The position numbers were made by a program, and so were the translations under genes. Positions 10,911-55,487 of a stretch of DNA of 64,000 nucleotides are shown piece by piece; within the stretch, counting starts at the first letter, position 1; each line of letters begins with the position of its first letter. Below the pieces are notes generated by a model. That model ran no database searches, was not told where the DNA came from, and was given only the letters and a program-made list of their open reading frames with translations. Source of the stretch: Nitrospinota bacterium (lineage in GTDB: Bacteria; Nitrospinota_A; UBA7883; JACRLM01); contig JACQXA010000004.1 of NCBI GenBank assembly GCA_016208975.1, forward strand, positions 428,501 to 492,500, given 5' to 3'.

Positions 10911-10915
10911 GTCTT

Positions 10916-14997: not shown

Positions 14998-15007
14998 AGC
15001 TTTTTCC

Positions 15008-17199: not shown

Positions 17200-18548
17200 C
17201 AGGCCCGCTCCTTCCCGAAAGCGGCCACGGCTTTCCTGAACTCTTCGCCGCGATGCTCGTAATTCCTGAACATGTCGAAACTGGCGCAGGCGGGGGATAG
17301 AAGAACCGTGTCACCCGATGCGGCCATGCCAGCGGCCAACCGCACGGCCTCTTCCAGGCTGGCCGCCATTTCCACCGGATTAAAATCCCCCAGGGCCGTT
17401 TTTATTTGACCGGCGGTCTTGCCGATAAGCACGGCTCCCTTGGCGTGGAGGCGCGCCGCTTCGGCGAAAGATGTGAAATCCGCCCCTTTGCTGGAGCCTC
17501 CGGCGATTATCACCACGTTCCCCTTGTATCCTGAGAGGGATTTTATGGACGCGTCGGTGTTAGTCCCTTTGGAGTCGTTTATGAACGCAACGCCGTTGAT
17601 GAGACCCACGCGCTCCATGCGGTGCGGCAGGCCTTCGAAATCCACGATGACCTCGCGGACATCCTCCACGGAGGCTCCGCCCGCCAGCGACAAAAGCGAC
17701 GCGGCCAGCGCGTTTTCCACGTTGTGGGTTCCTGGAACTTTCAGGTCGGTCAAGGTGAACAGCTCCACCTTGCCGCCACCGATGTCGGCCACGGCTTTAG
17801 AGCCTTCCACCCACGCCCCGGGTTTGCCGTGGGGGTTTATCCCGAAATACAGTTTTCGAACCCCTGGCGGCGGCGTGAGCCTGGAGCCTATGGGATCTTC
17901 GGCGTTGAGGATAACCGTGTCCCCCTCCCTCTGGTTTTCGAACAACCTGGCTTTCAGCCCGGCGTATATCTCCATGGTCTTGTGCCTGTCCATATGGTCC
18001 GGCGTGACGTTCAGCACGGCGCTAACCTTCGGCCTGAACGTCTTTATCCCCTCCAGCTGGAAGCTGGACATTTCCACCACGGCCCACTGATGCCCCCCGC
18101 CCACGGCCCAGCAAAGCGGATCCCCAATGTTGCCGCCCACGAAGGTTTTATGCCGCCGGGACATCATCCTGCCGGTGAGGGTGGTGGTGGTGGTCTTGCC
18201 GTTGGCTCCGGTTACAGCCATAACCGGCGCGTTCAAATGGCGGAACGCCAGCTCCACCTCGGAGATAAGCTCCACCCCCGCGTTTCTTACCGCCGCTGGC
18301 AAAGGCGCCTCCCACGGCACGCCGGGGCTTATAACCGCCAGGTCGTACTCCGCAGGATTTATCCCGTCATGGCTACCCAAAACGCGTGTGGTCCTCCCGG
18401 GTAGCATGGCGGCAAACTCCGCCAGGTCCTTTTCGGGCTTCACGTCGGTGACCATGGTCTGGCCCCCCATGCTGTCTATCAGCAATGCCGCGGCGGCTCC
18501 GCTTTTGGCCAGGCCGATTATCAGCGCCTTTTTATTTTTGTAATCCAT
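17199..18548 (-). CDS. murD: UDP-N-acetylmuramoylalanine--D-glutamate ligase MurD
   Basis: A 449-residue Mur ligase adding D-Glu. ALIIGLAKSGAAAALL is the UDP-binding domain, VTGANGKTTTTTL the ATP loop, and NVTPDHMDRH the metal/carbamate region. FINDSKGTNTDASIKSL and LLSPACASFDMFRNYEHRG are typical of MurD. ATG 18548 is preceded by GAGGGAG; an adjacent GTG at 18551 is the alternative. Confidence 0.96.
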   Translation of the reverse strand: MDYKNKKALIIGLAKSGAAAALLIDSMGGQTMVTDVKPEKDLAEFAAMLPGRTTRVLGSHDGINPAEYDLAVISPGVPWEAPLPAAVRNAGVELISEVELAFRHLNAPVMAVTGANGKTTTTTLTGRMMSRRHKTFVGGNIGDPLCWAVGGGHQWAVVEMSSFQLEGIKTFRPKVSAVLNVTPDHMDRHKTMEIYAGLKARLFENQREGDTVILNAEDPIGSRLTPPPGVRKLYFGINPHGKPGAWVEGSKAVADIGGGKVELFTLTDLKVPGTHNVENALAASLLSLAGGASVEDVREVIVDFEGLPHRMERVGLINGVAFINDSKGTNTDASIKSLSGYKGNVVIIAGGSSKGADFTSFAEAARLHAKGAVLIGKTAGQIKTALGDFNPVEMAASLEEAVRLAAGMAASGDTVLLSPACASFDMFRNYEHRGEEFRKAVAAFGKERA

Positions 18549-18555
18549 CACTCCC

Positions 18556-19641
18556 TCACCTGAGTTTCAGCGTGCTAAGGGAGATGAGGGCCAGGATGGC
18601 GGACACTATCCAGAACCGCACGATAACCTGCGGCTCGGGCCAGCCCAGCTGTTCGAAATGATGATGCAGGGGCGCCATCCTGAAAAACCGTTTGCCGGTG
18701 GATTTGTACCAGGCCACCTGGATGATCACCGACAGCGCCTCCACCACGAACACGCCGCCCACGATGGCCAGCAGTATTTCCTGTTTGCACATCACCGCCA
18801 CCACGCCGAGGATACCCCCCAGCGCCGTGGAGCCCACGTTGCCCATGAAGATCATGGCCGGGTAGCAGTTGTACCAGAGGAACCCCAGTGAGGCCCCCAC
18901 CACCGCCGCGCAGAACACCGTCATCTCCCCCGCCTGGGGCACGTAAGGGATGTTGAGGTACTCGGCGAACTTGGCGTTGCCCGACAGGTACATGAGCGCG
19001 GCGAAGGCAAGGAATGACACTGTTACGGGGCCTATGGCCAGCCCGTCCAGCCCGTCGGTGAGGTTAACGGCGTTGGCCGCCGCCACTATCACCAGCATGG
19101 CGAAGGGGATATAAAATACTCCCAGGTCCGGCCGCACACTTTTAAGGAACGGCACATGTATCCTTGTGAAACTTTCCGCCCCGCCGTTGATGACGTAAAG
19201 GATCAACACCACAACCAGGGCGGCGGCGAACTGCAAAAGAAGTTTCCGCTTTCCGGAGATGCCCCCTTTTCTCAATCCGGTGAGTTTGGCGTAATCGTCA
19301 TAAAACCCGATGAGGCCGAAAAGGAGCGCCGTGAGGACGGCGGCCCAAATGTAGCCGCTGGTAAGGTCCGCCCACAGCAAGGTGGGAAAGGCCAGCGATA
19401 TCAGTATCATTATGCCGCCCATGGTGGGGGTGCCCGCCTTGGAAAGGTGGGTCTTGGGCCCGTCGGCGCGGATCTTTTCCCCTATGTTCTGGGTCTTGAG
19501 ATACTCGATAAGCACGGGCCCGATGATTAGCGCCGCCGCCAGGCCGGTTATCACCGCGTAGATTGAACGGAACGTGATATACCGGAACACGTTGAACAGC
19601 GTGTGGCTGTCGTGCAGAGGATATAGAAGATGATATAACAC
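18556..19641 (-). CDS. mraY: Phospho-MurNAc-pentapeptide translocase MraY
   Basis: The 361-residue, ten-helix membrane enzyme that transfers phospho-MurNAc-pentapeptide to undecaprenyl phosphate, making lipid I. KAGTPTMGGIMIL, GFYDDYAKLT and NAVNLTDGLDGLA hold the catalytic aspartates, and MAPLHHHFEQLGW is the family's triple-histidine loop. It uses a GTG start sharing one base with the murF stop (TAGTG). Confidence 0.97.
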   Translation of the reverse strand: MLYHLLYPLHDSHTLFNVFRYITFRSIYAVITGLAAALIIGPVLIEYLKTQNIGEKIRADGPKTHLSKAGTPTMGGIMILISLAFPTLLWADLTSGYIWAAVLTALLFGLIGFYDDYAKLTGLRKGGISGKRKLLLQFAAALVVVLILYVINGGAESFTRIHVPFLKSVRPDLGVFYIPFAMLVIVAAANAVNLTDGLDGLAIGPVTVSFLAFAALMYLSGNAKFAEYLNIPYVPQAGEMTVFCAAVVGASLGFLWYNCYPAMIFMGNVGSTALGGILGVVAVMCKQEILLAIVGGVFVVEALSVIIQVAWYKSTGKRFFRMAPLHHHFEQLGWPEPQVIVRFWIVSAILALISLSTLKLR

Positions 19642-21035
19642 TACGCCACTCCCCCCATGACCGGCAAAAGCCTGTTTACCACTTTTTCCATGGCCGACCC
19701 GCGCGAGCCTTTAATAAGCGCCGTGTCATACGGCTTTATAAACGCCGCCAGTTTGTCCGCAAGCTCCTCGTGGGTATGGCCCACTACGGCTTTGACGCCC
19801 AGCCGCGCCGCTTCCGCCGCGGCGTCTTCCGAATGCGTTCCCAACACGAAAATCGCGGAAACGCCGGTTTTCGCCGCCACCTTGCCGATATGCCTGTGCA
19901 CGCGGGAACTGGCCGGGCCAAGCTCCAGCATGTCGCCCAGCACGAATATGGTTCTGCCTTTGTCCTTGTATTCGGCCAGGGTGTAAAGCGCCGCCTCGGC
20001 GGATTGCGGGTTGGCGTTGTACGTGTCGTTTATAAGTAGCGCGCCGTTCTTCAAGCGGACCGGCTCCATTCGCATCTTCTCCGCTTTAACCTTTGCCAGG
20101 CCCCGGCCTATTTTCTCCGGCTCCACACCGGCCATAACGGCGGCGGCGAAAGCGGCCACGGCGTTCTCCGCGTCTTTCAATCCTATAAGCCCGATGCGCG
20201 TCTTGTATTCTTTGCCTTTGGCTTTTATGGTGAGCGCTCTGCCCCCCGTTCCAAGTATTGGCTCGGAGCCCATTAGGCGGAACGAGGCCCCGGCGGCGGC
20301 GCCAAAGGTGACCGTCCGCCTTATCTTCTTTTCTATCAGCGGCGCGCTATGCCAGTCATCGGCGTTGAGCGCGGCCACGCCACCCTTGCGCATGTTCTCC
20401 AAAAGCTCCGCCTTGGCGGCCCGCACAGCGGCCACCGAGCCCAGCTTGCCCATGTGCGCCGAGCCCACGTTGGTAATTACGCCTATCTTCGGGTCTGCTA
20501 TCTTCGCAAGCCTTGCAATCTCGCCGGGGGAACTCATCCCCATCTCAATAACCGCCGCCTGGTGTTTTGCCGTGAGGTTTAGAAGGGTCAAAGGCGTTCC
20601 TATATGATTGTTCAGGTTGCCTTCCGTTTTCAGGGTGTTGTATTTCACCGAAAGGGCCCCGGCTATAAGGTTCTTCACCGTGGTCTTCCCCGACGAGCCT
20701 GTAACGCCAACGACAATCAACTTCCTGAACTTTCTCCTGTGATAGGCCGCCAGCTCCTGCAGGGCGAAAACCGTATCCTCCACCAGGATAAGCGTGGCCT
20801 GGGGCTGGGTGAGTATAAGATACGGCTCCGATATGATTGCCGCACCGGCGCCACGGTTGAAAGCTTCGCGGGTGAAGACGTGGCCGTCGAACCTGTCCCC
20901 TTTTATCGCCACGAAAAGGTTCCCCCGGCGGACAAGCCTGGAGTTTATGCACACCCCGCGCGTTTTCTGGCCCGTGCCCAGCACCAGCCTGCCGCCCACG
21001 GCGTGGGCTAGTTCCAACGCCTCAAACGCTGGCAT
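19641..21035 (-). CDS. murF: UDP-MurNAc-tripeptide--D-alanyl-D-alanine ligase MurF
   Basis: A 464-residue Mur ligase that adds D-Ala-D-Ala to the UDP-MurNAc-tripeptide. GVTGSSGKTTVKNL is the ATP loop, NLNNHIGTPLTLL the conserved substrate region, VIEMGMSSPGEIA the Mg site, and INDTYNANPQSAEAAL the C-terminal motif. It overlaps the murE end by 14 bp. Confidence 0.95.
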   Translation of the reverse strand: MPAFEALELAHAVGGRLVLGTGQKTRGVCINSRLVRRGNLFVAIKGDRFDGHVFTREAFNRGAGAAIISEPYLILTQPQATLILVEDTVFALQELAAYHRRKFRKLIVVGVTGSSGKTTVKNLIAGALSVKYNTLKTEGNLNNHIGTPLTLLNLTAKHQAAVIEMGMSSPGEIARLAKIADPKIGVITNVGSAHMGKLGSVAAVRAAKAELLENMRKGGVAALNADDWHSAPLIEKKIRRTVTFGAAAGASFRLMGSEPILGTGGRALTIKAKGKEYKTRIGLIGLKDAENAVAAFAAAVMAGVEPEKIGRGLAKVKAEKMRMEPVRLKNGALLINDTYNANPQSAEAALYTLAEYKDKGRTIFVLGDMLELGPASSRVHRHIGKVAAKTGVSAIFVLGTHSEDAAAEAARLGVKAVVGHTHEELADKLAAFIKPYDTALIKGSRGSAMEKVVNRLLPVMGGVA

Positions 21036-22515
21036 TTAAAAGCCTCACCGCTTCCGCCGCCTCCTCGCGGTCGTCGAAATGTATCTTTGTGGCGCCGATT
21101 ATCTGGTAATTCTCGTGTCCCTTCCCGGCGATCACCACTATGTCCCCTTCCCTGGCCTGCGCCACGGCGGAACGGATGGCCGCGCGGCGGTCCGCCTCCA
21201 CCATAAGCTCACCGGCGGGATTTTCTTCCCTGTCAATCCCGGCCAGGACCTCTTCAATTATTTTGTCCGGGTCTTCCGTGCGGGGGTTGTCGGAGGTCAC
21301 CACCACCCGGTCGGACAGCCTCCACGCCGCCCTTCCCATAAGCGGCCTCTTTTTCCTGTCCCGGTCCCCGCCGCATCCGAACACGGTGATTAGCTTGCCC
21401 CTGGTGACTCCCCGCGCAGTGGTCAGGACGTTTACAAGGGCGTCGTCGGTATGGGCGTAGTCCACTATCAGCGCGAAAGGCTGGCCCGCGTTCACGCTTT
21501 CAAACCTTCCCGGCACGTTTTTCAGGCTGGCCACGCCCTTTACCAGCGTGTCTATATCCACCCCCTCGGCCACAGCCACCGCCGCCGTGGCCAGGATGTT
21601 ATAAACGTTGTGCCGGCCTACTAAGGGGGAGCGTAGCGGCGCGTCGCCAAAAGGGGTTTTAAGGGTCATGCTTATCCCTTCCACAGTCACCGCAACGCCC
21701 TCGGCGAAACAGTCGGCGCCCGGCTGGAGGCCGTAGGTTATTTTCGGCGCGTGGGTGATATCGAACAGCCTTACGCCATACGGGTCGTCCATGTTGATGA
21801 CGGCGTGGCCTGGGGAAAGCTCCGTAAACAGCCGCGCCTTGGCGGCGAAGTAGCGCTCCATGTCCCCGTGGTAATCCAGATGGTCCTGCGTGAGGTTGGT
21901 GAAGACCGCCGTGGAGAATTTAACCGCGTCGGCCCTTCCCTGGTCCAGCGCGTGGGAAGACACCTCCATGGCGCAGGCCGACCCGCCATGTTTGCGGATG
22001 GTGGCCAGCATCCGCATAAGGTCCAGCGCTTCCGGCGTGGTGTTCTCCGCTGGCATCTCGGTTCCGGTCAGAAGGTCGTGACCCACGGTGCCTATCCGCC
22101 CGCAGGAACGCCCGGCGGTCCTCATCATTCCGGCTATGAGGTACGAAGTGGTGGTCTTGCCGTTGGTGCCTGTTATCCCCACCACGCTCAATGCGGAGGC
22201 GGGCCAGTTGTAAAAATATCCAGCCAGCGCACCCAGCGCTTTTCTTGCGTTTTCCACCACAACCATGGTGACGTTGGCGGGGATGGGCGTCTGCGGCTCC
22301 TTCTCGGCCACTATCATCGAGGCGCCTCTGTCCAAGGCGTCCGCCACAAAAGCGGTTCCGTCCAGTTTCGCCCCGGGGATAGCCACAAAAGCGAAACCGG
22401 AGCTGGTCTGTCTTGAGTCGTAGCACAACCCATTCAGCGCTCCAGCGCCATGCCCGGCCACGCGCAAAGGCGCAATGGTTTTTAGCGCCTCTTCCAGGCT
22501 TTTTGCTCCGGTCAT
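21022..22515 (-). CDS. murE: UDP-MurNAc-L-Ala-D-Glu--meso-DAP ligase MurE
   Basis: A 497-residue Mur ligase. GITGTNGKTTTSYL is the ATP loop, TNLTQDHLDYHGDM the central motif. The C-terminal VTSDNPRTEDP contains the DNPR sequence that marks meso-diaminopimelate specificity rather than lysine. The organism therefore should make m-DAP peptidoglycan. It starts four bases inside the ftsI end. Confidence 0.95.
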   Translation of the reverse strand: MTGAKSLEEALKTIAPLRVAGHGAGALNGLCYDSRQTSSGFAFVAIPGAKLDGTAFVADALDRGASMIVAEKEPQTPIPANVTMVVVENARKALGALAGYFYNWPASALSVVGITGTNGKTTTSYLIAGMMRTAGRSCGRIGTVGHDLLTGTEMPAENTTPEALDLMRMLATIRKHGGSACAMEVSSHALDQGRADAVKFSTAVFTNLTQDHLDYHGDMERYFAAKARLFTELSPGHAVINMDDPYGVRLFDITHAPKITYGLQPGADCFAEGVAVTVEGISMTLKTPFGDAPLRSPLVGRHNVYNILATAAVAVAEGVDIDTLVKGVASLKNVPGRFESVNAGQPFALIVDYAHTDDALVNVLTTARGVTRGKLITVFGCGGDRDRKKRPLMGRAAWRLSDRVVVTSDNPRTEDPDKIIEEVLAGIDREENPAGELMVEADRRAAIRSAVAQAREGDIVVIAGKGHENYQIIGATKIHFDDREEAAEAVRLLNASV

Positions 22516-24371
22516 GAATCCAGTCCCGGCTGGCTCTCAATAGCCCGCCCGCCATTCCCGGCTCCCGCCACCCGGTCTTTGCCGGAGAGCTTCCGCCAGT
22601 TGATTTCGTATATCTCCGAGTCGGTTGATGGTATCCGCAACGCGCGGGCCGCCCGGGCGCCTATCTCCGAGAACACCGGCGCCGCCACCGCCCCGCCCCA
22701 TTCAACACCCTTAGGTTCGTCCACCATCACAAGGATCACAAGGCGCGGCGCCTCTACAGGGAAAAAACCCACAAACGAGGCCAGGTATTTATCCGTCGAA
22801 TAGGCCCGTGTGACAGGGTCTATCTTCTGGGCTGTGCCGGTTTTCCCCGCCACGGTATAGCCGGGTATGGCCGCGTTCTCGCCGGTGCCGCCGGTCACCA
22901 CGCCTTTCATCATCTCGCGCATGAGCATGGCAGTGGCCGCCGTTATGGGCCTCCCCACCACCTCGCGGGCGGTCACTGAATCCACTTCGCCCTCTCGCAT
23001 TTTCGCCCGCAGGAAATGGGGGCGCACCAGGTATCCGCCATTGGCGAACACCGCCACGCCGGTAATTAACTGGATCGGCGTAACGGAAGTCTCCTGCCCG
23101 AACGAGATGGACGGAAGCGACGTGGCCGACCATTGGGAGACCGGCCGTAGCAGGCCAGGGGCTTCGCCGGGCAAGTCAATTTCGGTTTTAGCGCCGAATC
23201 CGAAATCCTTAAGATGCCTCATGAGCCGTTGCGGACCCAGCATTTCGCCTATCTTTATGGCGCCAATGTTGGAAGATTTGGCTATGATCTCCGAAACCGT
23301 GAGGTTGCCATATCTGTTTTTGTGCGCCTCTTTGAACTGCCTTCCACCCAGAGAATAACTGCCCAGCTCGCAATCAATAACATCGTCGGGAGTGACAAGC
23401 CGTTCATCCATGGCGGAGGCCACCACGAAAAGCTTGAAGGTGGAGCCCGGCTCCACCGACTCGGCCACGGCCTTCGGCTTCATGTTCTCGGCGCTGTATC
23501 TTGCAAAATTGTTCGGGTTGTACCTGGGCTGTTCGGCCATGGCCAGTATTTCCCCCGTGGCCGGATCCATCACTATGGCCACGCCCCCTTTGGCGCCAGA
23601 CTTGAGCACCTGTTTTTCCAGGGCTTTTTCCGTGATGTACTGCACCCGCTCATCTATGGTGAGGACCATGTCCAAAGGCGCCGCCTTGTCCGCCAGCTCC
23701 ATGGCCTCGGGCATGGACACGGGCCTGCCCAAAGCGTCTTTTAGCACAACGAACTGGGAGTTCAACGGCCTCATAACGTTGTTGTAGGCGTACTCGATGC
23801 CGTATAGCCCCTGGTTGTCCATTCCGCAAAACCCGATTATTTTCGCGGCGATGTCCCGTTTAGGATAGAACCTCTTGGACTCCTTAACGAACCCCACGCC
23901 CGGCAAATCGGCCTTGCGCACCTTTTCCGCCAGCTCCGGCTCCACCTTGCGGCGCACCCATATAAAACTCCTTCTGCTCCTCTTGCGCAGGTCGGAGAGC
24001 ATCTTCTTGTGTAAAGCGTCCCGCGCAGTGGCGTCTTCCGGCTCCAGCATGTCCGCCAGCGTCTTGATGGCCTTGGCCGGGTTTTCCATCAGGCGGGGGT
24101 TCATATAGATGGAGTTCATGTCTATGGAAACGGCCATCTCGTTAAAATTCCTGTCGTAGATGACTCCACGGGGAAGGTGCACCCGCATATGGCCGAAATG
24201 GAGGTTCTCCGAATACTCATCCACCCGCTCATCCGAGAACAGCATCAGCTGGGCCAGCCTGCCGGACAAAACGGCGAACCAGACCAGTATCACAGCGGAA
24301 ACAAGATAGACCCGCGCCTTGTACCAGTCCCGCTTTACGCCCCCGGCTGAACCGCCGTTACCGCTTCGCAA
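22512..24371 (-). CDS. ftsI: Septal transpeptidase FtsI (class B PBP3)
   Basis: A 619-residue class B penicillin-binding protein: one N-terminal membrane helix (about residues 20-40), a PBP dimer domain, and a transpeptidase domain with the SxxK serine in EPGSTFKLF, SxN in KSSNIG and the KTG box in VAGKTGTAQK. It crosslinks septal peptidoglycan together with FtsW. No ATG or GTG lies near the expected N-terminus; a TTG at 24371 overlapping ftsL by 14 bp is the best start. Confidence 0.95.
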   Translation of the reverse strand: MRSGNGGSAGGVKRDWYKARVYLVSAVILVWFAVLSGRLAQLMLFSDERVDEYSENLHFGHMRVHLPRGVIYDRNFNEMAVSIDMNSIYMNPRLMENPAKAIKTLADMLEPEDATARDALHKKMLSDLRKRSRRSFIWVRRKVEPELAEKVRKADLPGVGFVKESKRFYPKRDIAAKIIGFCGMDNQGLYGIEYAYNNVMRPLNSQFVVLKDALGRPVSMPEAMELADKAAPLDMVLTIDERVQYITEKALEKQVLKSGAKGGVAIVMDPATGEILAMAEQPRYNPNNFARYSAENMKPKAVAESVEPGSTFKLFVVASAMDERLVTPDDVIDCELGSYSLGGRQFKEAHKNRYGNLTVSEIIAKSSNIGAIKIGEMLGPQRLMRHLKDFGFGAKTEIDLPGEAPGLLRPVSQWSATSLPSISFGQETSVTPIQLITGVAVFANGGYLVRPHFLRAKMREGEVDSVTAREVVGRPITAATAMLMREMMKGVVTGGTGENAAIPGYTVAGKTGTAQKIDPVTRAYSTDKYLASFVGFFPVEAPRLVILVMVDEPKGVEWGGAVAAPVFSEIGARAARALRIPSTDSEIYEINWRKLSGKDRVAGAGNGGRAIESQPGLDS

Positions 24372-44195: not shown

Positions 44196-44438
44196 TTAAG
44201 GGAGCTTTACGTGCGCCCCGTCGCACCATGGGCTCATCTTGGTATGCTTGCACATGCACCATGGAACCTTGCCGCTCTCGGTGATTTTCACCTCTTTTGG
44301 CTCAATCCCCGTGCCTTTGTGCGCCCCATCGCAGAACGGCTGGTTGGCCGAACGCCCGCAGGCGCACCACCAGTAGACACCTGGCTCCATGTGTAATACG
44401 AGAGGATTTTTCTTGACCACCACAGGCTCTCCGGCCAT
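44196..44438 (-). CDS. CDGSH iron-sulfur domain protein (two repeats)
   Basis: An 80-residue protein with two CDGSH-like cluster sites, CACGRSANQPFCDGAH and CMCKHTKMSPWCDGAH, each giving the three cysteines and one histidine that hold a 2Fe-2S cluster. Tandem-repeat prokaryotic CDGSH proteins are small electron-transfer or cluster-shuttle proteins. ATG 44438 has GGGGGTGAAG upstream; a TTG at 44453 is an alternative. A second, paralogous gene is at 55230. It probably leads the gltA transcript. Confidence 0.88.
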   Translation of the reverse strand: MAGEPVVVKKNPLVLHMEPGVYWWCACGRSANQPFCDGAHKGTGIEPKEVKITESGKVPWCMCKHTKMSPWCDGAHVKLP

Positions 44439-44606
44439 CTTCACCCCCAACAAAAACAGGTTCGTAAAGAAAAGGGTCCAGTTGTAAAAAACAACCTATC
44501 ATACCCTCCACCGGGGCGCATCTGAAAAAGATATGGCAAAACCATATTATGCTTGCCATTGCTACCGGTTATGAGCTAAATTATTACCAGCTTTTTTTTA
44601 GTTGCC

Positions 44607-44637
44607 GCCGGGGTCTTCGGGGGCCCCGGCAATTTTT
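44607..44637 (+). terminator. Intrinsic terminator-like hairpin with no upstream gene
   Basis: GCCGGGG (44607-44613) pairs with CCCCGGC (44624-44630), followed by AATTTTT. On the plus strand there is no intact gene just before it, which suggests it terminated a gene now lost. Confidence 0.55.
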
Positions 44638-44685
44638 GCTTCCCCCTGCAATCATCATCCACTTCACTATATATGCGGCGCCAAA

Positions 44686-44997
44686 ATGCCCGTGGTTTAT
44701 ACGCGGCATGACGCCGGATACACGGATTCCGCCACCGGAAGTTACGGCCTTAAACTTACCGGCGGCCCCTGGGGCCGGGCCAACAACGCCTTGGGTTTGG
44801 CCAATGGCGCGATTACGGTCAGCAATAACGTTCTAACCGGGCAGGACGGCGATGAGCCAGCCGCGGAAGTTTATTACCGCTGGCAGATGGGCGAGAACCT
44901 CGGCCTTGCCGCTGACGGACATTATCTTACCAACCTTGGGCGGCCCATGAACCGGGATGAGGCCGTTTTTGGAATCGGCGCTCCGGCGGATTTTTAG
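44686..44997 (+). pseudogene. C-terminal remnant of an OprB-like carbohydrate porin
   Basis: About 100 codons ending in TAG at 44995. The reading frame ESGLKLTGGPWGRANN-type region (GLKLTGGPWGRANN), AAEVYYRWQMGENLGLAADGHYL, and the closing AVFGIGAPADF match the last strands of OprB-type porins, including a terminal phenylalanine. There is no signal peptide or upstream barrel, so only the 3' end survives. An orphan terminator-like hairpin lies just upstream. Fragment identity is inferred from motif spacing only. Confidence 0.55.
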
Positions 44998-45051: not shown

Positions 45052-45080
45052 TTGACAACGCCTTGAATCACAAATAGAAT
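45052..45080 (+). promoter_or_regulatory. Strong sigma-70 promoter of the roadblock/MglA operon
   Basis: Perfect TTGACA (45052-45057), 17-bp spacer, TAGAAT (45075-45080, 5 of 6). Transcription would start near 45087, giving a leader of about 90 nt before ATG 45177. Confidence 0.7.
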
Positions 45081-45176
45081 GGTGTTTGCCGGCTGGGGGC
45101 TGGCGCGGTAATCCCGCCTTGGCCTGGCGGGTGATAAAAATAAGGCCATTACGGGCCTAAACATTTTTTACGGACA

Positions 45177-46238
45177 ATGGCAGGCCTTATCGAACCGAAG
45201 GAATCACCGGCGGCCTTGGCGCTGGCATACGGCAAGATCGCCAAAAGCCTGCATGGCATGGGCGAGAAGGCGCTGGCGCTAGAGGTTTTGGACAGCGGAG
45301 CCAAAAAACTTCCCGAAGCCGCCGGAATCCACATCGCCCGGGGCGAGATATTCATATCCAGCTACAACGCCGAAAACCGGGCCGACTATCTGAAAGCCGC
45401 GCTGGAGAGCCTGGAGACGGCCATCCATCTGGATCCCCAAAATTACCTGGCAAGGCTGTTGGCCAGCCAGATTTATGTTCGAGCGAAAAAGGCATCCCGC
45501 GCCAAGGCGCTCCTTGAGGATATTCTTAAGACAACTCCCGGCGACGACAGGGCCACTGCGCTTCTCAACATGATCGTGGAAGCCCAAAAGGCGGCCCAGG
45601 CCAGGAAGGAAGAAGCGGCCAGACGGGCGGCCGAAGAGCAGGCCAAGGCCGCCGCGCCCGTTCTGGAGCCAGCGCCTGCGGCGCCTGAGGCCATAGCCGA
45701 AGTGCCCCCCCCCGCTCCCGCCGAACCGCCCGCCACCGAGACATTGGGCGAGGGAGAAGAAGATGAAAACGAGCCGGGCGATATCATCATATCCGGCGGG
45801 GGCGCCGCCGATACCGGCGGCAAAGGCCAGTGGGGCCTCGACGAAAAAGTGGTGATAGGCGCCCATGAGGATGAAACCGAAGAAGAGATGGCCCAGGAGA
45901 ACCTGGTGGCCAAGCTCCCCATCTTCTCAAGGCTCGAAGGGATGATGGGCATTTTCCTGCTGGACGCCAACGGCCAGCCTTTCAAGATAATAAACAAGGC
46001 CAAGCTGGACGAGAACGTCCTGCCGTCGCTTATATTCAACCTGTTCAAGACATCGGTCAACGGCGTCCGCCGAAGCGGCCTGGGCAGTTTCCAGCGGGGA
46101 ACGCTGGTCACGCCCATCGGCACCCTTCTGGTGGCCAACGCCTTTTACGCCACCATCGCCCTTATGGTGGATAACGACTCCAACATGCAGGTGGTGGAAA
46201 CCAGGTTGCAACGCTACTTGAGCGAGGTGACGGGGTGA
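45177..46238 (+). CDS. TPR protein with C-terminal roadblock/LC7-like domain
   Basis: A 353-residue protein in three parts: TPR-like helices (about residues 10-140, ALEVLDSGAKKLPEAAG and ALESLETAIHLDPQNYLARLL), an Ala/Pro/Glu-rich linker (about 141-225), and a C-terminal alpha/beta domain (about 240-353, LPIFSRLEGMMGIFLLDANG ... GTLLVANAFYATIALMVDND) resembling roadblock/LC7. Roadblock domains regulate Ras-like GTPases (MglB for MglA). It is the first gene after the promoter and overlaps the next, also roadblock, gene. No Shine-Dalgarno is evident before ATG 45177. Confidence 0.72.
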   Translation: MAGLIEPKESPAALALAYGKIAKSLHGMGEKALALEVLDSGAKKLPEAAGIHIARGEIFISSYNAENRADYLKAALESLETAIHLDPQNYLARLLASQIYVRAKKASRAKALLEDILKTTPGDDRATALLNMIVEAQKAAQARKEEAARRAAEEQAKAAAPVLEPAPAAPEAIAEVPPPAPAEPPATETLGEGEEDENEPGDIIISGGGAADTGGKGQWGLDEKVVIGAHEDETEEEMAQENLVAKLPIFSRLEGMMGIFLLDANGQPFKIINKAKLDENVLPSLIFNLFKTSVNGVRRSGLGSFQRGTLVTPIGTLLVANAFYATIALMVDNDSNMQVVETRLQRYLSEVTG

Positions 46239-46597
46239 GCCAGCTAAAGCCGATACTCAAGGTACTTTGCGGCGTGTCCGGGGTGCGCGGCGCGGTGATC
46301 ATAACCAAGGACGGCATGGTGATAGACTCCATGCTGGAACCGCCGTTCGACGCGGAAACGATGGCGGCATTCATGTCGCAGATCGCGGTGACGATCACCA
46401 ATTCGCTGGCCAGCATGGGCGTGAAAGAATTCACGCGGTACGTCATGCAGTCCAACAGCGGCAGGATATACATGATGGACCTGGGCAAGTCGGCATTGTT
46501 AGCCCTTACCGAGGGAAACGCGGATCAGGGCAGGATGAACGTTGCCCTGTTCCAGGCCGCCAACGAGATCAAGAAATCCGGTCGTATAGACGTTTGA
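46235..46597 (+). CDS. Roadblock/LC7 domain protein (MglB-like)
   Basis: A 120-residue single-domain roadblock protein: LKVLCGVSGVRGAVIITKDGMVIDS at the N-terminus and GRIYMMDLGKSALLALTEGNADQGRMN later follow the MglB/LC7 pattern. In Myxococcus MglB is the GTPase-activating protein of MglA. GTG 46235 overlaps the preceding stop (GTGA). Directly downstream is an MglA-type GTPase, which makes this the likely partner. Confidence 0.85.
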   Translation: MSQLKPILKVLCGVSGVRGAVIITKDGMVIDSMLEPPFDAETMAAFMSQIAVTITNSLASMGVKEFTRYVMQSNSGRIYMMDLGKSALLALTEGNADQGRMNVALFQAANEIKKSGRIDV

Positions 46598-46628
46598 TGG
46601 CCCACGGTTTTTTGGAGACCTGAGGGAA

Positions 46629-47867
46629 GTGCAACTTAATTACGCGAAACGCGAAGTCTCGTGCAAGCTTGTGTACTACGGGCCGGGCATGAGCGGTAAA
46701 ACCACCAACCTGGAAATAATACACCAGCGGGTGCCCGACCAGAATAAGGGGGAGATGACATCCATCGCCACCGAGGGGGACAGGACGCTGTTCTTCGATT
46801 TCCTGCCGCTGGACCTGGGCCAGGTGCGGGGGATGAACACCAAGTTCCAGCTTTACACGGTTCCGGGCCAGGTGTATTACGCCTCCACCCGCAAGCTTGT
46901 GCTTCAGGGGGCGGACGGGGTCATATTCGTCGCGGACTCCCAGCGGGAGAAACTGGACGAGAACATCGAGTCGCTCAAAGACCTGCAACAAAACCTGGAA
47001 GACTACGGGCTGAAAATAGAAGAGTTGCCCATGGTTATCCAGTGGAACAAGCGGGACCTGCCCAACGCCATGCCCGTCGAAGAGCTCAACGAGAAGATAA
47101 ACTGGATGCGCGCCGCCACCACCACCGCCGTGGCGGCCACCGGCGAAGGGGTCTTGAACACGCTGAAACTTTGCGCGTCGCTGATCCTGGACCGGCTTAA
47201 CGCCAAGGAGCCCGGCTCCGCGGCCAAACCCCAGAAGGCGGAAGCGGCCCAGGCCCCAGCCCCCGAGGCTCCTCCTGAGAAGAAAGAGATATTCGTAGCC
47301 AAGGTCAACGCGGACCAGATATCCAAGAGCTATTTCACCCAGTACTGCCAGGTGCAGTACCGCCTGGCCTCCAGGACCGACGAAGTTGATGATTTCAAGA
47401 AATTCTCCCCGGAGGACAAGCAGAAGCTCCTGGACTCGCTCATGAATTTCGTGCTTCTGCTCCAGGACGCCAAGAAAAGAGGCATCGCCGCCCCCAAGGA
47501 GGATGTGGACGCCCAGGTGGCCGAGTATCTGAAGAGGTTCAAGAGCCGCGAGGATGTGGACGGGTATCTTTCCCGCAGAAAGCTCACGCTGGACAATTTG
47601 CGCAACGAAGCCACGAAAAATGTGATAATAAGCAAAATCATACAGAAGGTAATCCCAAACCTTAACGAGAGGCTGAAGATTACCGAAAGCGAGGTGCGGG
47701 ATTTTCATTCCGCCAACGCCGCGCGGTTCGGTGGCAGGCCGCTGGACGCGGCGAAGGCCGAGGTGATAGCCGCCATAAAGGGGCAAAGGAAGAAATCCCT
47801 GCTCGATGAGCTTTTCATGAGGCTCAGGCAGGAGGCGAATATAACCGTGTTCAAGGAAAATCTGTAA
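46629..47867 (+). CDS. MglA-type Ras-like GTPase fused to a SurA-N-like domain
   Basis: A 412-residue fusion. Residues 1-195 are an MglA GTPase: VYYGPGMSGKTTNLE is the P-loop, TEGDRTLFFDFLP is switch I/strand, YTVPGQVYY is switch II (VPGQ, as in MglA), and QWNKRDLP is the NKxD base motif. After a Pro/Ala linker (196-218), residues 219-412 look like the N-terminal chaperone domain of SurA/PpiC proteins (VNADQISKSYF, LLDSLMNFVLLLQDAKKRG, LTLDNLRNEATKNVIISKII, ITESEVRDFHSANAARFG). No signal peptide exists, so this chaperone-like part would be cytoplasmic. I know of no characterised protein with this fusion. Confidence 0.8.
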   Translation: MQLNYAKREVSCKLVYYGPGMSGKTTNLEIIHQRVPDQNKGEMTSIATEGDRTLFFDFLPLDLGQVRGMNTKFQLYTVPGQVYYASTRKLVLQGADGVIFVADSQREKLDENIESLKDLQQNLEDYGLKIEELPMVIQWNKRDLPNAMPVEELNEKINWMRAATTTAVAATGEGVLNTLKLCASLILDRLNAKEPGSAAKPQKAEAAQAPAPEAPPEKKEIFVAKVNADQISKSYFTQYCQVQYRLASRTDEVDDFKKFSPEDKQKLLDSLMNFVLLLQDAKKRGIAAPKEDVDAQVAEYLKRFKSREDVDGYLSRRKLTLDNLRNEATKNVIISKIIQKVIPNLNERLKITESEVRDFHSANAARFGGRPLDAAKAEVIAAIKGQRKKSLLDELFMRLRQEANITVFKENL

Positions 47868-47891
47868 GACAGGCTGGAAGGTCGGCGAAAC

Positions 47892-48392
47892 ATGAAGGAC
47901 GAAAAGCTCCGCGAAAAGCGGATGGTGTATTACAAGGAGGATTTCGACCAGATTGAGAAGCTTATGGAGGAATACCTTAAGCTGTCCAATTCCCGGTGCG
48001 TGTTCCTCATAGACAAGGAAGGCCATCTTGTGACCCAGCGTGGGATGACCCAAACGTTCAACGCCGAGACCCTCTCGGCGCTGGTGGCGGGCGCTTTCGC
48101 GGCCACCAAGGAGATGGCGCGCCTGCTTGGCGAAACGGAATTCACCGTGATGTTCCACCAGGGCAAGAAAGACAACATACACCTTTCGCTGGTTGGGGAC
48201 AGGTCCATCGTGGCCACGGTTTTCGACGAGAAGACCACTGTGGGAATGGTGAACCTCTACTCCAAGGAGCTTACGGGAAAACTGGTGAGGATATTCGAAA
48301 TAGCGTTGAAACGCCAGCCCCAGGAACAGCCGATGGAGGCGGACTATTCCGATTCGGTGCAGAACCGCCTCGACGACATGTTCAAGGAATGA
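47892..48392 (+). CDS. Roadblock/LC7 domain protein (MglB-like, extended)
   Basis: A 166-residue roadblock protein with a charged N-terminal helix (residues 1-30) and a C-terminal extension. RCVFLIDKEGHLVTQRG, ALVAGAFAATKEMARLLGE and MVNLYSKELTGKLVRIFE are the LC7 elements; it resembles roadblock proteins next to MglA genes in deltaproteobacteria. It would form a heterodimer or homodimer that acts on the GTPase encoded 24 bp upstream. Confidence 0.85.
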   Translation: MKDEKLREKRMVYYKEDFDQIEKLMEEYLKLSNSRCVFLIDKEGHLVTQRGMTQTFNAETLSALVAGAFAATKEMARLLGETEFTVMFHQGKKDNIHLSLVGDRSIVATVFDEKTTVGMVNLYSKELTGKLVRIFEIALKRQPQEQPMEADYSDSVQNRLDDMFKE

Positions 48393-48445
48393 CCCTTGGC
48401 CGGCCTTCGCCTGAAGGACGCGGCCTTATTCACGCATATGGCCTC

Positions 48446-50362
48446 ATGATTAAATTCGCCCGCTTCATCATGGCCCTGGCCGCGGTCGCCGCTTTGGCGG
48501 CCGCCCCCCCTTCTTTCGGAGAGGGCAAGGTGGACGAGGCCCGGTTCGCGCCAGTCTCGGAGCTTTCCGTGGGGGACATAGAGCATGACCCGGAGATGAA
48601 AAAATCTTTCTCCATATGGCTTGAGGCGCTCCATAAAGGGGACGAGGCTTCTTCCTTCGCCGAGACCAACAGGATGCTGGAGGGGATGAACCGGCTTGGC
48701 ACCCGCAACCTTTATCCTTTGTCGGACGCGTGCATAGCCCTGGCCCGGTCGGCCCTTACCGGCGGTGACGCGGCCAAGGCGGTCACGGCGGCGAGGTACG
48801 CGACGTTTTTCGCTCCAGACTCCGCCCAGGCCCATTTCTTCCTGGCGCGGGCCATATTCGCCAAGAACAAGGCCGACGTTTCGGCGGCGGGCATGAGCGC
48901 GTTCACGGGGTTTAAGAAACTGCTGACCGACAGGATCCAGCGGGACCTGTTCATATCCCAGGCGGCCCTTTACATGTTGCTGGCGGTGGGCACGGCTTTT
49001 GTAATCACATTCATAGCGCTTTTCGCCCAAAGCCATCAGGCGGTGCTTTCCAACATAACCTCGTTCTTCCCTGCGGCCCAGCACGGTTTCTGGCGGCCAC
49101 TGGTTGGCGCCATGGTCATACTGGCGCCGCTGGCGGTGGGCGGCTGGCAGATATTTATCATATCGTTGCCGCTGTTCCTGTGGCCCTGCTCACGGCGCGG
49201 GGCAAGGGTGTTGATGGTGATTTTCGCGGCGTTCGTGCTGTCGGCCCCGTATCTTTTCATGAACATGGCAAGAGGCGCCGCCATGGCATCCGCGGACACA
49301 TACAGGTCGCTTTACCTGCTCTCCCAAAGCACATGGGACCACGACACAAAGCTTGCCCTGGAGCGGGAGCGGGCGCGCAATCCGGAAGACACGCTGGTGG
49401 CTTTCGCCCTGGGGCTTCTAAACAAAAGCAGGAAAGACAGGCCCGCCGCCGTGGAGGCATTCGACGCGGCCCTGGCGCAGGACCCGCGGGACATCCGGAC
49501 GCTGATAAACAAGGGCAACGCATATTATGTGGCCCGGGAATATGAAGACGCGGTGGCCATGTACCGGGAAGCCATGGAGGCCGACCCCCAATCGGTTGAG
49601 GCGCATTTCAACCTCTCGGTCACCTTCAACGAAATGTTGCGCACGAAAGACTCGGAGGGGGAATACAACAAGGCCAACGTCATAGACCCCAAGAGGACGC
49701 AGGAGTTGGTGGAACTTACAAAGGACCAGGAGCATGACCGCAAGGTGGTGGATTTCCCCATCACCGACGCGGACTTGAAATCATACGAGCAGGCGGCCGA
49801 GGAGCGGACGATGAGCGTGGGCGCGTCCATGTGGAGCGTCTATTTCGGCGCCATCACCATGAAGACGTACCTGGGCATCACCGCCGGTTTCATCGCGCTA
49901 CTGGCCCTTTCCCACGTTTACTGGATGCGCAGGGTCTCCCACGAGGTGTGCTCTTCTTGCGCGTCTCCGTTCCTGCCCCCCATCAAGCTGGGGCCGGAGC
50001 TTCCGCAGTGCAACCAGTGCGTGGCGGCGCAGATAACCAAGGCCGGCGTATCCTCGGCCAAGAAAGACAAGAAGCGCAAGGAGATAAGGGAAAGCAAGGA
50101 GCGCCGCAGGATGGCGGCTGTGGTGATGGACAGGATAATCCCCGGCGCGGGACGGATATACGCCCACGAGTACATTTCGGGCCTGTTGTTCAGCGTGCTC
50201 ACCAGCATGATACTGGTCTACGGCGCGGGTTTTATCATGCCGGACCTTATGGAGCGGGAAGGCGCCATGACGGACGCGCTGAAACTTTACATCCCGTTCA
50301 TCGCGGTGGCGGCGGTTTACTGGGCCCTGATGAACACGGCCCTGAAAAGGGAGTTCTACTAG
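48446..50362 (+). CDS. Polytopic membrane protein with TPR repeats and zinc ribbon
   Basis: A 638-residue protein: signal peptide/anchor (residues 1-25), a soluble helical region, membrane helices about 165-190, 211-235 and 240-270, TPR repeats (about 310-440, VEAFDAALAQDPRDIRTLINKGNAYY and AMYREAMEADPQSVEAHFNL), a helix at about 474-495, a zinc-ribbon-like CSSCASPF...PQCNQCVAA (C502, C505 and a second CX2C), a basic stretch, then two final helices. An ATG at 48389 overlapping the preceding stop is possible but would bury the signal segment. It could be the membrane scaffold that the GTPase system acts on. No family name recognised. Confidence 0.68.
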   Translation: MIKFARFIMALAAVAALAAAPPSFGEGKVDEARFAPVSELSVGDIEHDPEMKKSFSIWLEALHKGDEASSFAETNRMLEGMNRLGTRNLYPLSDACIALARSALTGGDAAKAVTAARYATFFAPDSAQAHFFLARAIFAKNKADVSAAGMSAFTGFKKLLTDRIQRDLFISQAALYMLLAVGTAFVITFIALFAQSHQAVLSNITSFFPAAQHGFWRPLVGAMVILAPLAVGGWQIFIISLPLFLWPCSRRGARVLMVIFAAFVLSAPYLFMNMARGAAMASADTYRSLYLLSQSTWDHDTKLALERERARNPEDTLVAFALGLLNKSRKDRPAAVEAFDAALAQDPRDIRTLINKGNAYYVAREYEDAVAMYREAMEADPQSVEAHFNLSVTFNEMLRTKDSEGEYNKANVIDPKRTQELVELTKDQEHDRKVVDFPITDADLKSYEQAAEERTMSVGASMWSVYFGAITMKTYLGITAGFIALLALSHVYWMRRVSHEVCSSCASPFLPPIKLGPELPQCNQCVAAQITKAGVSSAKKDKKRKEIRESKERRRMAAVVMDRIIPGAGRIYAHEYISGLLFSVLTSMILVYGAGFIMPDLMEREGAMTDALKLYIPFIAVAAVYWALMNTALKREFY

Positions 50363-50365
50363 GTC

Positions 50366-51598
50366 ATGGCCTTACAGGGAAGCCTGGACGATTTTAACAT
50401 CCTCAACATTCTCCAGATGATAAAGCTGGAGGGCAAGACGGGAAGGCTTACCATTACCGAGGGTGAAGACCTGGTGAAAATCACCTTCGACAACGGGGCC
50501 ATAATATTCGCCGAATGCGCCCCAGGCCGGGAGGAGGCCCGCATTAAAGGCACCCTTATCGGCAACAGGATAGTGGACCTGCAGGCGTGGAACGAAACGA
50601 AAAAAGAGCATGAAGACTCCTTAAAACCATACTGGGAGCTTCTCGCCAAAAGATTGCCATTGCCGACGCTGGTGGAGCTTATAAAGCGCCAGGTGCTGGA
50701 CAACGTGTATTACGCCCTGCGGTGGAAAAAGGGGACCTACGAGTTCACCCCCATGAAAGGGATCAAGTACAACGACAAGATCATGCCCCCCATGGACGTG
50801 GACGCGGTGCTGATGGAGGGATGCAGGATAGCTGACGAATGGCCCAGGATAACGGCGGCCATCCCGCCGCTGGGCACATACATCATGAAGAACATCCTTG
50901 CCGAGGACGAGTATGAGTCGCTGGCGTTAAAAGGGCCCGAAACCGGGGTGGATTTCCAGACTTCCATCGAGTACGAGATACTCATGGCGCGAGGGATGCG
51001 CCTTTCCCCGTCCGAGGTGAATGTCCTGTCGGTCATAGGGCACGGGATGACCATCCAGACAGCGCTGGACGCGGCCAGGCAAGGGCATTTCACAAGCCTG
51101 GAGGCCATCCAGAGCCTGTTCCGCACGGGCATCCTGAAAGCCGGCGCCAAGAAAAAAGACACAACCGTAGCCGTGGACAACACGGGAAACACCGCCCGGA
51201 TTGCCACAGTGGGGGCGCTGGGAGTCATCCTGGCGGCTGGTTTGGCGTGGCAGATTTTCTCATGGCCCAAGTTTGTGGAGGCCCGCAAAGAGGGGATAAT
51301 AGAGGTCAAGTCCATGCAAGCCGCTGGACAGCTAAACAAGATAGAACGGGCGTTGAAAATCTACACCACCCTCAATGGCGCGCCGCCGCAAAACCTCAAG
51401 GCTCTGGTGGAGAAAGGGGCGCTGGAAAAGAGCGGCCTTTCAGACCCATGGGGAAACCCATACCAATACTCGTTGAAAAACGACCGGTTCATTTTATACT
51501 CCACAGGGCCTGACACGTTCCTGGGGGCCGACAATATCTATATTCCCAGCCAGTCCTCCCCCCGGCCCGCCGCGACAGCGCCGGACGAGAACACATGA
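50366..51598 (+). CDS. PATAN (DUF4388) protein with TM anchor and GspG-like C-terminal domain
   Basis: A 410-residue protein. The N-terminus (residues 1-100, LQGSLDDFNILNILQMIKLEGKTGRLTI) is the PATAN/DUF4388 domain often linked to two-component or GTPase signalling. The middle holds winged-helix-like helices. A single membrane helix lies at about 283-300 (IATVGALGVILAAGLAWQIF). The C-terminal part (LNKIERALKIYTTLNGAPPQNLKALVEKG, SDPWGNPYQYSLKNDRFILYSTGPD) copies the GspG/T2SG major-pseudopilin C-terminal domain with its calcium-loop region. It therefore joins a cytoplasmic signalling domain to a periplasmic pseudopilin-like head. It begins 3 bp after the TPR gene and overlaps moaB-like by ATGA. 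Confidence 0.78.
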   Translation: MALQGSLDDFNILNILQMIKLEGKTGRLTITEGEDLVKITFDNGAIIFAECAPGREEARIKGTLIGNRIVDLQAWNETKKEHEDSLKPYWELLAKRLPLPTLVELIKRQVLDNVYYALRWKKGTYEFTPMKGIKYNDKIMPPMDVDAVLMEGCRIADEWPRITAAIPPLGTYIMKNILAEDEYESLALKGPETGVDFQTSIEYEILMARGMRLSPSEVNVLSVIGHGMTIQTALDAARQGHFTSLEAIQSLFRTGILKAGAKKKDTTVAVDNTGNTARIATVGALGVILAAGLAWQIFSWPKFVEARKEGIIEVKSMQAAGQLNKIERALKIYTTLNGAPPQNLKALVEKGALEKSGLSDPWGNPYQYSLKNDRFILYSTGPDTFLGADNIYIPSQSSPRPAATAPDENT

Positions 51599-52104
51599 CC
51601 GCGCAATCCCGCGGGATATCCATAGCCCTTCTGGTGGTTAGCGACAGGGCTTCCACGGGCGTAAGGCCAGACCAGGTTGAACCGGCCATGCGGGCGTTCC
51701 TGGAAAAACAGGGGGAGAGCCTGGCCCATTGCGCCGTGGTTCCAGACGAAAAGGGCCCAATCGCCGAAACTGTGGCCCGATGGGCCGATTCCGGCGATTA
51801 CGACCTGATACTCACCGCGGGGGGCACGGGCCTGTCACCAAGGGACGTCACCCCCGAAGCCGTAAAGCCTCTGCTCGAACGGGATATACCGGGAATACCC
51901 GAGATCATGCGGGCCGAGTCTTTCAAGATAACCCCCAACGCGCCCCTGTCCCGCGGTTACGCCGGTTGCCGGGGCCGGGCCATGATAATAAACCTGCCAG
52001 GAAGCCCCAAGGCCGCCGTGGAGAACCTGTCGTTCGTCTGGAAGGCGGTGGCGCACGGTGTGGTAAAACTAAAAGGCGACATGGGCGATTGCGCCCCGGC
52101 GTAA
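51595..52104 (+). CDS. MoaB/MogA-family molybdopterin-binding protein
   Basis: A 169-residue protein of the MoaB/MogA fold: VVSDRASTGVRPDQ, DLILTAGGTGLSPRDVTPEAV and LPGSPKAAVENLSFV are the family motifs (the TGGTG loop and PGxP loop bind molybdopterin). MogA adenylylates molybdopterin for molybdenum cofactor synthesis; MoaB/MogA cannot be told apart here. It overlaps the PATAN gene by ATGA, so it is transcribed with the GTPase operon although its known chemistry is unrelated. Confidence 0.85.
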   Translation: MTAQSRGISIALLVVSDRASTGVRPDQVEPAMRAFLEKQGESLAHCAVVPDEKGPIAETVARWADSGDYDLILTAGGTGLSPRDVTPEAVKPLLERDIPGIPEIMRAESFKITPNAPLSRGYAGCRGRAMIINLPGSPKAAVENLSFVWKAVAHGVVKLKGDMGDCAPA

Positions 52105-52127
52105 AATAACCGGGTGTGTTGTAGGAA

Positions 52128-52877
52128 ATGATACATATCCATAACGTCACGAAAATGTACGGCAAGACCGTGGCGGTCAAGGAGTTGACCCTTCATGTCC
52201 GGGCCGGTGAGGTGTTCGGGTTTCTAGGCCCAAACGGAGCGGGTAAAACCACATCCCTCAAGATGCTCGCGGGGCTCCTCACTCCCACGGAAGGCTCCAT
52301 GGCCATAGCCGGGTTCGACACGCAGACGCAAGCGCTGGAGTCCAAGCGGGTCATCGGCTTTGTTCCGGACAAACCGTTCATTTATGAAAAGCTCACGGGC
52401 AGGGAGTTTCTGGAGTTCGTCCGCGAGATCTTCAGAATGGGGCAGGACAAGGCGGCCCTCGAAAAACAAGACGGGCTCATAGAGATGTTCGGCCTGTCCG
52501 GCTGGCTGGACGAGCTGGTGGAAAGCTATTCCCATGGCATGAGACAGAAGCTGGTGATAACCTCCGCCCTCATGCACAACCCCAAGGCGCTCATCATAGA
52601 CGAGCCGATGGTGGGGCTGGACGCGCGGGGCATGCGGCAGGTAAAAGAGCTTTTCCGGCAGGTGGCGCGGGACGGGTGCACGGTTCTCCTTTCCACCCAC
52701 ACCATGGCCACCGCCCAGGAGATATGCGACAGGATAGGCATACTCAACAAGGGAAAGCTTGTGGCCGTGGGGGACATAAACGAGCTTCGCGCCATGTCCG
52801 GCGAGACTGATGACGACCTGGAATCCATATTCCTCGCCCTCACCGAAAAGGAGCTTAAAAACAGCCATGGCGCTTAA
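52128..52877 (+). CDS. ABC transporter ATP-binding protein
   Basis: A 249-residue ABC ATPase of the CcmA/NatA type: Walker A FLGPNGAGKTTSLKML, Q-loop region GFVPDKPFIY, signature SYSHGMRQKLVI (variant of LSGGQ), Walker B ALIIDEPMVGLDARG and H-loop LSTHT. No permease gene is beside it in this window; the downstream small exported protein is not a permease. Energy supply for efflux or envelope traffic is likely, and the partner must be encoded elsewhere. Confidence 0.85.
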   Translation: MIHIHNVTKMYGKTVAVKELTLHVRAGEVFGFLGPNGAGKTTSLKMLAGLLTPTEGSMAIAGFDTQTQALESKRVIGFVPDKPFIYEKLTGREFLEFVREIFRMGQDKAALEKQDGLIEMFGLSGWLDELVESYSHGMRQKLVITSALMHNPKALIIDEPMVGLDARGMRQVKELFRQVARDGCTVLLSTHTMATAQEICDRIGILNKGKLVAVGDINELRAMSGETDDDLESIFLALTEKELKNSHGA

Positions 52878-53304
52878 CCTGCGGAGTACCCTTATTGCCG
52901 CGCCGGTTCTTATAACCCTTGCAATATTGGCGGCGCCCGCGGCTTACTCCGCCGCGGTGGAGAACTACGACATCCAGGGGGAGAAGGTGCGGATCAGAAA
53001 GACTTACAAAGACGGCGACACCATAAGGTTCTGCCTGACGCGGGCCAATTCGGTCAAGAATGTAAAATGGATAAAGCTTCTCAATAAGGATGGGCATGGG
53101 GTGGCGTTGCTTGAGATAAACGGAAAATCCGATGCGCCGGTATGCGCCACAGTGAGCCGCGAAGCCCTGCCCGGAGGGTTCCGGTACGAAATGTGGAAAC
53201 GCCGCCTGCTGTTTTTCGACACTTACTTAAACGGCGTGGATGTGACCTACCCCGGGCTTGCCCCCCTGGCCCGGCTGGATGTCCACTGGTTGGGAGAAAA
53301 CTGA
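52867..53304 (+). CDS. Small exported protein of unknown function
   Basis: A 145-residue protein with a signal peptide (LRSTLIAAPVLITLAILAAPAAYSA, cleavage near 29) and a compact beta-rich domain with two cysteines (IRFCLTRA and APVCATVSR) that could form a disulfide. No family recognised. It overlaps the ABC ATPase end by 11 bp, the last gene of the operon beginning at 45.18 kb. Confidence 0.7.
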   Translation: MALNLRSTLIAAPVLITLAILAAPAAYSAAVENYDIQGEKVRIRKTYKDGDTIRFCLTRANSVKNVKWIKLLNKDGHGVALLEINGKSDAPVCATVSREALPGGFRYEMWKRRLLFFDTYLNGVDVTYPGLAPLARLDVHWLGEN

Positions 53305-55229: not shown

Positions 55230-55487
55230 ATGCCTGAACCCAAGTCGCCCCAACACGCCCCTTATGTAATGGACATTGAGCCTGGAACATATATCTGGTG
55301 CGGATGTGGTCTCTCAAAAAACCAGCCTTTCTGCGACAACGCCCACAAAGGCACAGCATACGAGGGAACGCAACACGCCGCCGTTCTTTTCGAGATTGAA
55401 GAGGGCAGGACCGTAGCCCTGTGCGGATGCAAACACACCCACAAGCAACCCTTCTGCGACGGGACCCACGCCCTGCCGAAAGAATAA
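55230..55487 (+). CDS. CDGSH iron-sulfur domain protein (two repeats)
   Basis: An 85-residue protein with CGCGLSKNQPFCDNAH and CGCKHTHKQPFCDGTH, two CDGSH-type 2Fe-2S sites. PGTYIWCGCG and TVALCGCKHTHKQPFC are the tandem-repeat form also seen in the gene at 44196-44438, so the window carries two paralogues. GCGGAGG precedes ATG 55230. A monocistronic gene divergent from the DMT transporter. Confidence 0.9.
   Translation: MPEPKSPQHAPYVMDIEPGTYIWCGCGLSKNQPFCDNAHKGTAYEGTQHAAVLFEIEEGRTVALCGCKHTHKQPFCDGTHALPKE

Follow-up and report, generated by a model that had tools for sequence, protein, structure and literature searches.

A conserved MglA/MglB operon of Nitrospinota, with a SurA-N-like domain on the GTPase, is a candidate module for type IV pilus control

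The window analyzed here, a stretch of 64,000 nucleotides from a Nitrospinota genome of 2.97 Mb in 4 contigs, contains nine plus-strand open reading frames (ORFs) that overlap by a few bases or are separated by gaps of at most 53 bases (Table 1). Their positions and spacing agree with a preliminary description of this DNA, and Pfam and NCBIfam confirmed its domain calls, namely roadblock, MglA-type GTPase, TPR, DUF4388 (equivalent to PATAN), T2SSG, MoCF_biosynth, and ABC_tran. The strong promoter placed in front of the genes in that description stands as a close consensus match, but promoter-like sites in the region, 6 versus 4.0 +/- 2.2 in shuffled sequences, are within chance. Among terminator-like sites on the plus strand, two lie within genes and none lies between genes of the operon.

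Table 1. Features of the operon region, in positions of the window
Feature	Position	Strand	Basis
Promoter TTGACA-17-TAGAAT, sigma-70-like	45052..45080	+	11/12 consensus positions; consensus match only
Gene 1: TPR repeats and C-terminal roadblock domain	45177..46238	+	Pfam TPR_19; hhalign; PDB profile search
Gene 2: roadblock/LC7, single domain	46235..46597	+	Pfam Robl_LC7 1.3e-12
Gene 3: Group 1-type MglA GTPase, variable linker, and SurA-N-like domain	46629..47867	+	MglA structures 1e-67; SurA_N_3 9.7e-11
Gene 3, C-terminal SurA-N-like domain	47286..47867	+	Pfam, model, Foldseek
Gene 4: MglB, likely GAP of the GTPase	47892..48392	+	M. xanthus MglB full-length, E 3.5e-30
Gene 5: TPR/zinc-ribbon membrane protein	48446..50362	+	Pfam TPR; hydropathy; four conserved Cys
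Gene 6: PATAN (DUF4388)-TM-GspG-like	50366..51598	+	Pfam DUF4388 4.8e-22, T2SSG 7.7e-8
Gene 7: MoaB/MogA-like, non-core	51595..52104	+	Pfam MoCF_biosynth
Gene 8: ABC ATPase, local neighbor, non-core	52128..52877	+	Pfam ABC_tran
Gene 9: small exported protein, local neighbor, non-core	52867..53304	+	Without Pfam match

Elsewhere in the window, an ORF at 44196-44453 encodes a CDGSH iron-sulfur protein according to Pfam, and a second ORF at 55230-55487 is similar to it by eye. Just 5' of the operon, the ORF at 44602-44997 resembles the remnant of a beta-barrel porin. The minus strand carries a cell-division and cell-wall cluster at 8359-24371 with FtsZ, MurG, and a penicillin-binding protein (Pfam). 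An apparent MurG fusion at 15008-17314 was rejected as an over-extended ORF because, on inspection, its N-terminal part is overlapped by another ORF.

Full-length fusions of MglA with a SurA-N-like domain, as encoded by gene 3, occur in 17 of the 24 Nitrospinota genomes, including the source genome. All 16 relative loci that were retrieved show the same gene order (TPR-roadblock, roadblock, MglA fusion, MglB, TPR-membrane protein, and PATAN protein) to the limit of their contigs, a few of which end inside the block. MoaB lies 3' of the block in the 7 order-level relatives with long enough contigs and in none of the f6 loci, and the ABC ATPase and the small exported protein adjoin the block in no relative examined. 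Genes 1 to 6 are a real operon, and genes 7 to 9 are outside the conserved unit. Of the single nine-gene system proposed originally, the six genes conserved as a unit thus remain, whereas MoaB is shared only within the taxonomic order, genes 8 and 9 are local, and a role of the last three genes as machine parts is not supported. The gene order is not confined to one genome, as the six-gene order recurs in 16 further genomes and a five-gene core in other phyla. Several Nitrospinota relatives have a divergent gene upstream of the operon (cluster c10; L044:2964-4370 and similar loci) that codes for a Ser/Thr kinase with a cNMP-binding domain, the domains having been assigned by Pfam in L044 only; no such gene was seen at this place in the window.

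Residues 1-191 of the gene 3 product constitute the GTPase. Group 1 MglA proteins are defined by an intrinsic Arg finger beside the G2 Thr and by TVPGQ in G3 (PMC4316618). The Arg finger (R52) and TVPGQ (T77-V78-P79-G80-Q81) are invariant in 17 sequences, as are the P-loop GPGMSGKTT and the G4 motif NKRD, and gene 4 supplies the coupled MglB that also characterizes Group 1. Judged by its sequence, the GTPase keeps every catalytic residue of a Group 1 MglA.

The preliminary description was right that MglA is part of a fusion, and we can now name the partner as a SurA-N-like domain. It spans approximately residues 220-412, scores 42.2 bits against the Pfam cut-off of 27.2 bits for SurA_N_3, and is fully covered in 17/17 Nitrospinota fusions. 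In the AlphaFold model, pLDDT is mostly 84-92 over approximately residues 221-412; we used only this C-terminal domain, as residues 1-94 are mostly under 50. Foldseek matched the domain to SurA and LIC12922. There is neither a rotamase match in gene 3 at E 0.1 in Pfam, as expected of a parvulin domain, nor a signal peptide before the SurA-N-like domain, which comes after the GTPase. The domain should be cytoplasmic because no transmembrane (TM) segment separates it from the GTPase. In a sample of 385 genomes, the full-length fusion matches among those listed all come from Nitrospinota, and no other listed match extends beyond approximately residue 238, so that among the matches listed a SurA-N-like tail occurs in no other phylum sampled. 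A search of open-licence papers found none that treats MglA together with SurA and roadblock proteins.

Gene 4 is, by sequence, MglB: its residues 10-165 align to residues 4-158 of the Myxococcus xanthus protein, covering both the roadblock domain and the conserved C-terminal region. Pfam missed the roadblock domain of gene 1 (approximately residues 238-340); support for it comes from an hhalign comparison with the gene 2 family (E 5e-6, probability 86%) and from a PDB profile match to 9jue (E 4e-5). Only two recognizable Robl_LC7 genes exist genome-wide, both in this operon.

Gene 5 combines a signal-like N terminus and several TM segments, according to hydropathy, with TPRs and a zinc ribbon at residues 502-525, the four Cys of which are invariant in 14/14 homologs. 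Gene 6 is the only DUF4388 gene of the genome, with a PATAN score of 78.7 bits against the Pfam gathering score of 25 bits. In its predicted model, a single helix (residues 275-337) runs continuously through the membrane. In the C-terminal domain, the DPW motif of GspG is invariant in 13 homologs. We call gene 6 pseudopilin-like only, because it has no prepilin peptidase site at its N terminus, with the TM helix lying at approximately residue 277 behind PATAN, and because it falls short of the cut-off of the NCBIfam GspG equivalog (23.9 versus 88.85 bits). Foldseek with the gene 6 model returned no match under E 0.1.

A related block comprising PATAN, TPR-roadblock, roadblock, MglA, and MglB genes was found in Planctomycetota, Zixibacteria, and BRC1 by profile searches and by a named-genome scan that covers the best 80 loci and is not a census. 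An Ignavibacterium record (L117) has the same core, with the counterpart of gene 1 matched via its roadblock part. PATAN, roadblock, and MglB are all present in 33 of the 49 loci with enough flank in which MglA precedes MglB. Outside Nitrospinota, long and mostly low-complexity tails mark the MglA proteins whose gene precedes MglB, whereas none of the 11 MglAs encoded after MglB has a tail exceeding 19 residues. A hydropathy rule placed a TM-like segment near the C terminus in 36 of the 38 untruncated tails of Planctomycetota MglAs encoded before MglB. A basic-aromatic motif ends 10 of 12 Zixibacteria tails, a descriptive count and no independent test since the pattern was composed after viewing the tails; the ends in L118 and L127 are similar by eye. 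Two MglA tails, in L050:9062-10216 and L085:9959-11122, resemble a folded DUF3108-like domain, by eye only. The second MglA of one genome (L051:8156-9037) lies after a receiver-TPR protein and before an 865-aa TPR protein, with no adjoining MglB.

We placed 87 GTPase domains (192 columns) in a quick tree with SH-aLRT support only, in which many inner branches are weak. The Nitrospinota fusions form one group (support 97) nested in a larger group (96) made up mainly of tailed MglAs from Planctomycetota, and the tailed or short state changes 3 times on the tree versus 15.1 times in shuffles. The nesting among tailed MglAs points to replacement of a TM anchor by the SurA-like domain in Nitrospinota, and either horizontal transfer or shared ancestry may lie behind it. 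Two features appear to be new, namely C-terminal MglA tails tied to gene order and their SurA-N-like replacement in Nitrospinota.

An indication of function comes from Zixibacteria, where the order in L113 is comEC, PATAN, small exported protein, TPR-roadblock, membrane protein, roadblock, MglA, MglB, PilB, and PilT. Most other loci of this type have pilB or pilT in the same place, the exceptions being contigs that end near or before it; where contigs of Zixibacteria and close relatives reach that far, pilB is downstream, usually with pilT, and comEC is mostly upstream. Because the block sits between comEC and pilB-pilT there, control of a type IV pilus is the likeliest function, and on balance we favor the reading that genes 1 to 6 are an MglA/MglB switch module that acts from the inner membrane to control a type IV pilus or a closely related pilus-like structure. 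The contig that carries the block in one Nitrospinota genome (G005) also has pilM and a secretin gene, roughly 10 kb downstream; within the block of the window itself no pil gene was found, and the pilM of this genome is approximately 220 kb away. Across the 385 genomes, with presence of MglA taken as a match at 1e-50, PilT occurs in 129/137 genomes with MglA and in 187/248 without (Fisher p 1.5e-6; p 1.4e-5 for non-Nitrospinota only), p values that overstate the evidence since the genomes are related and not independent; the association may stem partly from shared ancestry. That the operon occurs only where PilT is present fits 17/17 genomes, a weak result given PilT in 23/24. Six Nitrospinota genomes have PilT and lack the MglA operon; therefore, the pilus can work without it. 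The PATAN protein PixE has been proposed to bind PilB1 (PMC7690835), and MglA with the TPR effector SgmX recruits PilB in M. xanthus (PMC11580455). By analogy with PixE-PilB1, PATAN is the likely contact to the motor PilB. The GTPase-controlled envelope or secretion machine envisaged in the preliminary description is thereby narrowed to type IV pilus control, through the Zixibacteria pilB/pilT genes and the precedents linking PATAN and MglA to PilB.

An alternative target of control, in place of a pilus, would be a type II secretion or pseudopilus machine, with gene 6 as a membrane-tethered minor pseudopilin. The T2SSG match of gene 6 above the Pfam cut-off and its PDB profile matches, which are to GspG, speak for this, and the several PilB/GspE-like ATPases in the genome make a secretion or competence filament possible. 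We nevertheless consider this function unlikely, given how far gene 6 lies below the GspG equivalog cut-off and the pairing of the Zixibacteria blocks with both pilB and pilT. PilT-type retraction ATPases are typical of type IV pili, not of type II secretion systems. It is slightly less unlikely that the core is a polarity or membrane-organizing module without a fixed output, positioning different machines in each phylum. In the Planctomycetota loci, a pil gene was not detected next to the block, most MglAs are predicted to be tail-anchored, and PATAN is joined to TPRs, usually via a TM segment (at approximately residue 460-590 in most proteins by hydropathy, and later in L069, an over-long ORF); in L066, Pfam identifies a BamB-like propeller in addition to the TPRs. 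Against such a variable output stand the consistent pilB/pilT link in Zixibacteria and the co-occurrence of MglA and PilT above expectation.

We regard it as highly improbable that the operon simply collects unrelated genes and that the SurA-like domain is a general cytoplasmic chaperone fused accidentally. The linker and the SurA-like domain do diverge faster than the GTPase, with identities between the order and f6 of 37% for the SurA-like domain and 71% for the GTPase. However, the 16 relative loci retain both the fusion and its gene order even though gene 5 is down to 22-26% identity in f6, and residues such as Y239, C240, Q241, N326, E327, and N331 in the SurA-like domain are invariant in 17 sequences.

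For the favored module controlling a type IV pilus, we propose a mechanism in which MglA would cycle between GTP and GDP and MglB, by homology, would speed GTP hydrolysis. The further roadblock proteins of genes 1 and 2 would probably serve as platforms or regulators of the GTPase, and gene 5 is probably a membrane scaffold. Through its single helix, gene 6 would join a cytoplasmic PATAN domain to a periplasmic pseudopilin-like domain and likely form the link to PilB and the pilus base. In related MglAs, the predicted C-terminal TM helix or basic-aromatic end probably keeps the GTPase at the membrane. In the weakest step of the mechanism, the SurA-N-like domain of Nitrospinota would take the place of this anchor and probably serve to dock the GTPase, with gene 5 or gene 6 as a possible partner. 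As a tentative generalization, somewhat short of an even chance, MglAs encoded before MglB may be a class tethered to the inner membrane by the C-terminal tail, with a cytoplasmic SurA-N-type binding domain and GTPase-governed client binding in Nitrospinota instead.

Most studies of MglA concern Myxococcus, in which the partners of MglA are encoded at dispersed chromosomal sites, and in many eukaryotic Ras-family GTPases a C-terminal tail is the membrane tether. In the present case, a single operon gathers the likely partners of a candidate GTPase for pilus control, with related blocks in several phyla, which makes each gene a testable candidate, and the variety of tails prompts the question of what keeps bacterial Ras-like GTPases at membranes. 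Like the M. xanthus MglA/MglB/SgmX pathway (PMC9481161, PMC11580455), the module has a Group 1-type MglA with Arg finger and TVPGQ, an MglB, extra roadblock proteins, a putative TPR effector and, as predicted here, control of PilB and the type IV pilus. Unlike in M. xanthus, the Nitrospinota genes lie together in one operon, a SurA-N-like domain is attached to MglA, the TPR protein of gene 5 is membrane-bound and has a zinc ribbon, PATAN shares a protein with a GspG-like domain, and the block has no RomR-like gene, as Pfam identified no receiver domain of a RomR/RomX-type GEF among the nine genes. The cyanobacterial PATAN response regulators PixG, PixE, and LsiR (PMC7690835) likewise place PATAN in type IV pilus control, a role predicted here; by contrast, gene 6 lacks a receiver domain and links PATAN through a TM helix to an extracytoplasmic pseudopilin-like domain. 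The actinobacterial conservons (Cvn, MglA Group 2; PMC4316618) are also operons of a GTPase with roadblock proteins, but the present operon differs in that it encodes no histidine kinase, its GTPase has the catalytic residues of Group 1 and not those of Group 2, and the partners are others. The C-terminal domain of gene 3 has the fold of the N-terminal helical region of SurA and LIC12922 (PDB 1m5y, 3nrk), although here it follows a cytoplasmic GTPase and lacks their signal peptide and parvulin domain. The designation of the operon as undescribed was only partly right, since the neighborhood of MglA/MglB and PATAN genes, the same type as here, is already reported, and called occasional, in PMC4316618 (citing Makarova 2006). 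Compared with that occasional neighborhood, the block described here is a recurrent five-gene core in several phyla, built around a tailed MglA.
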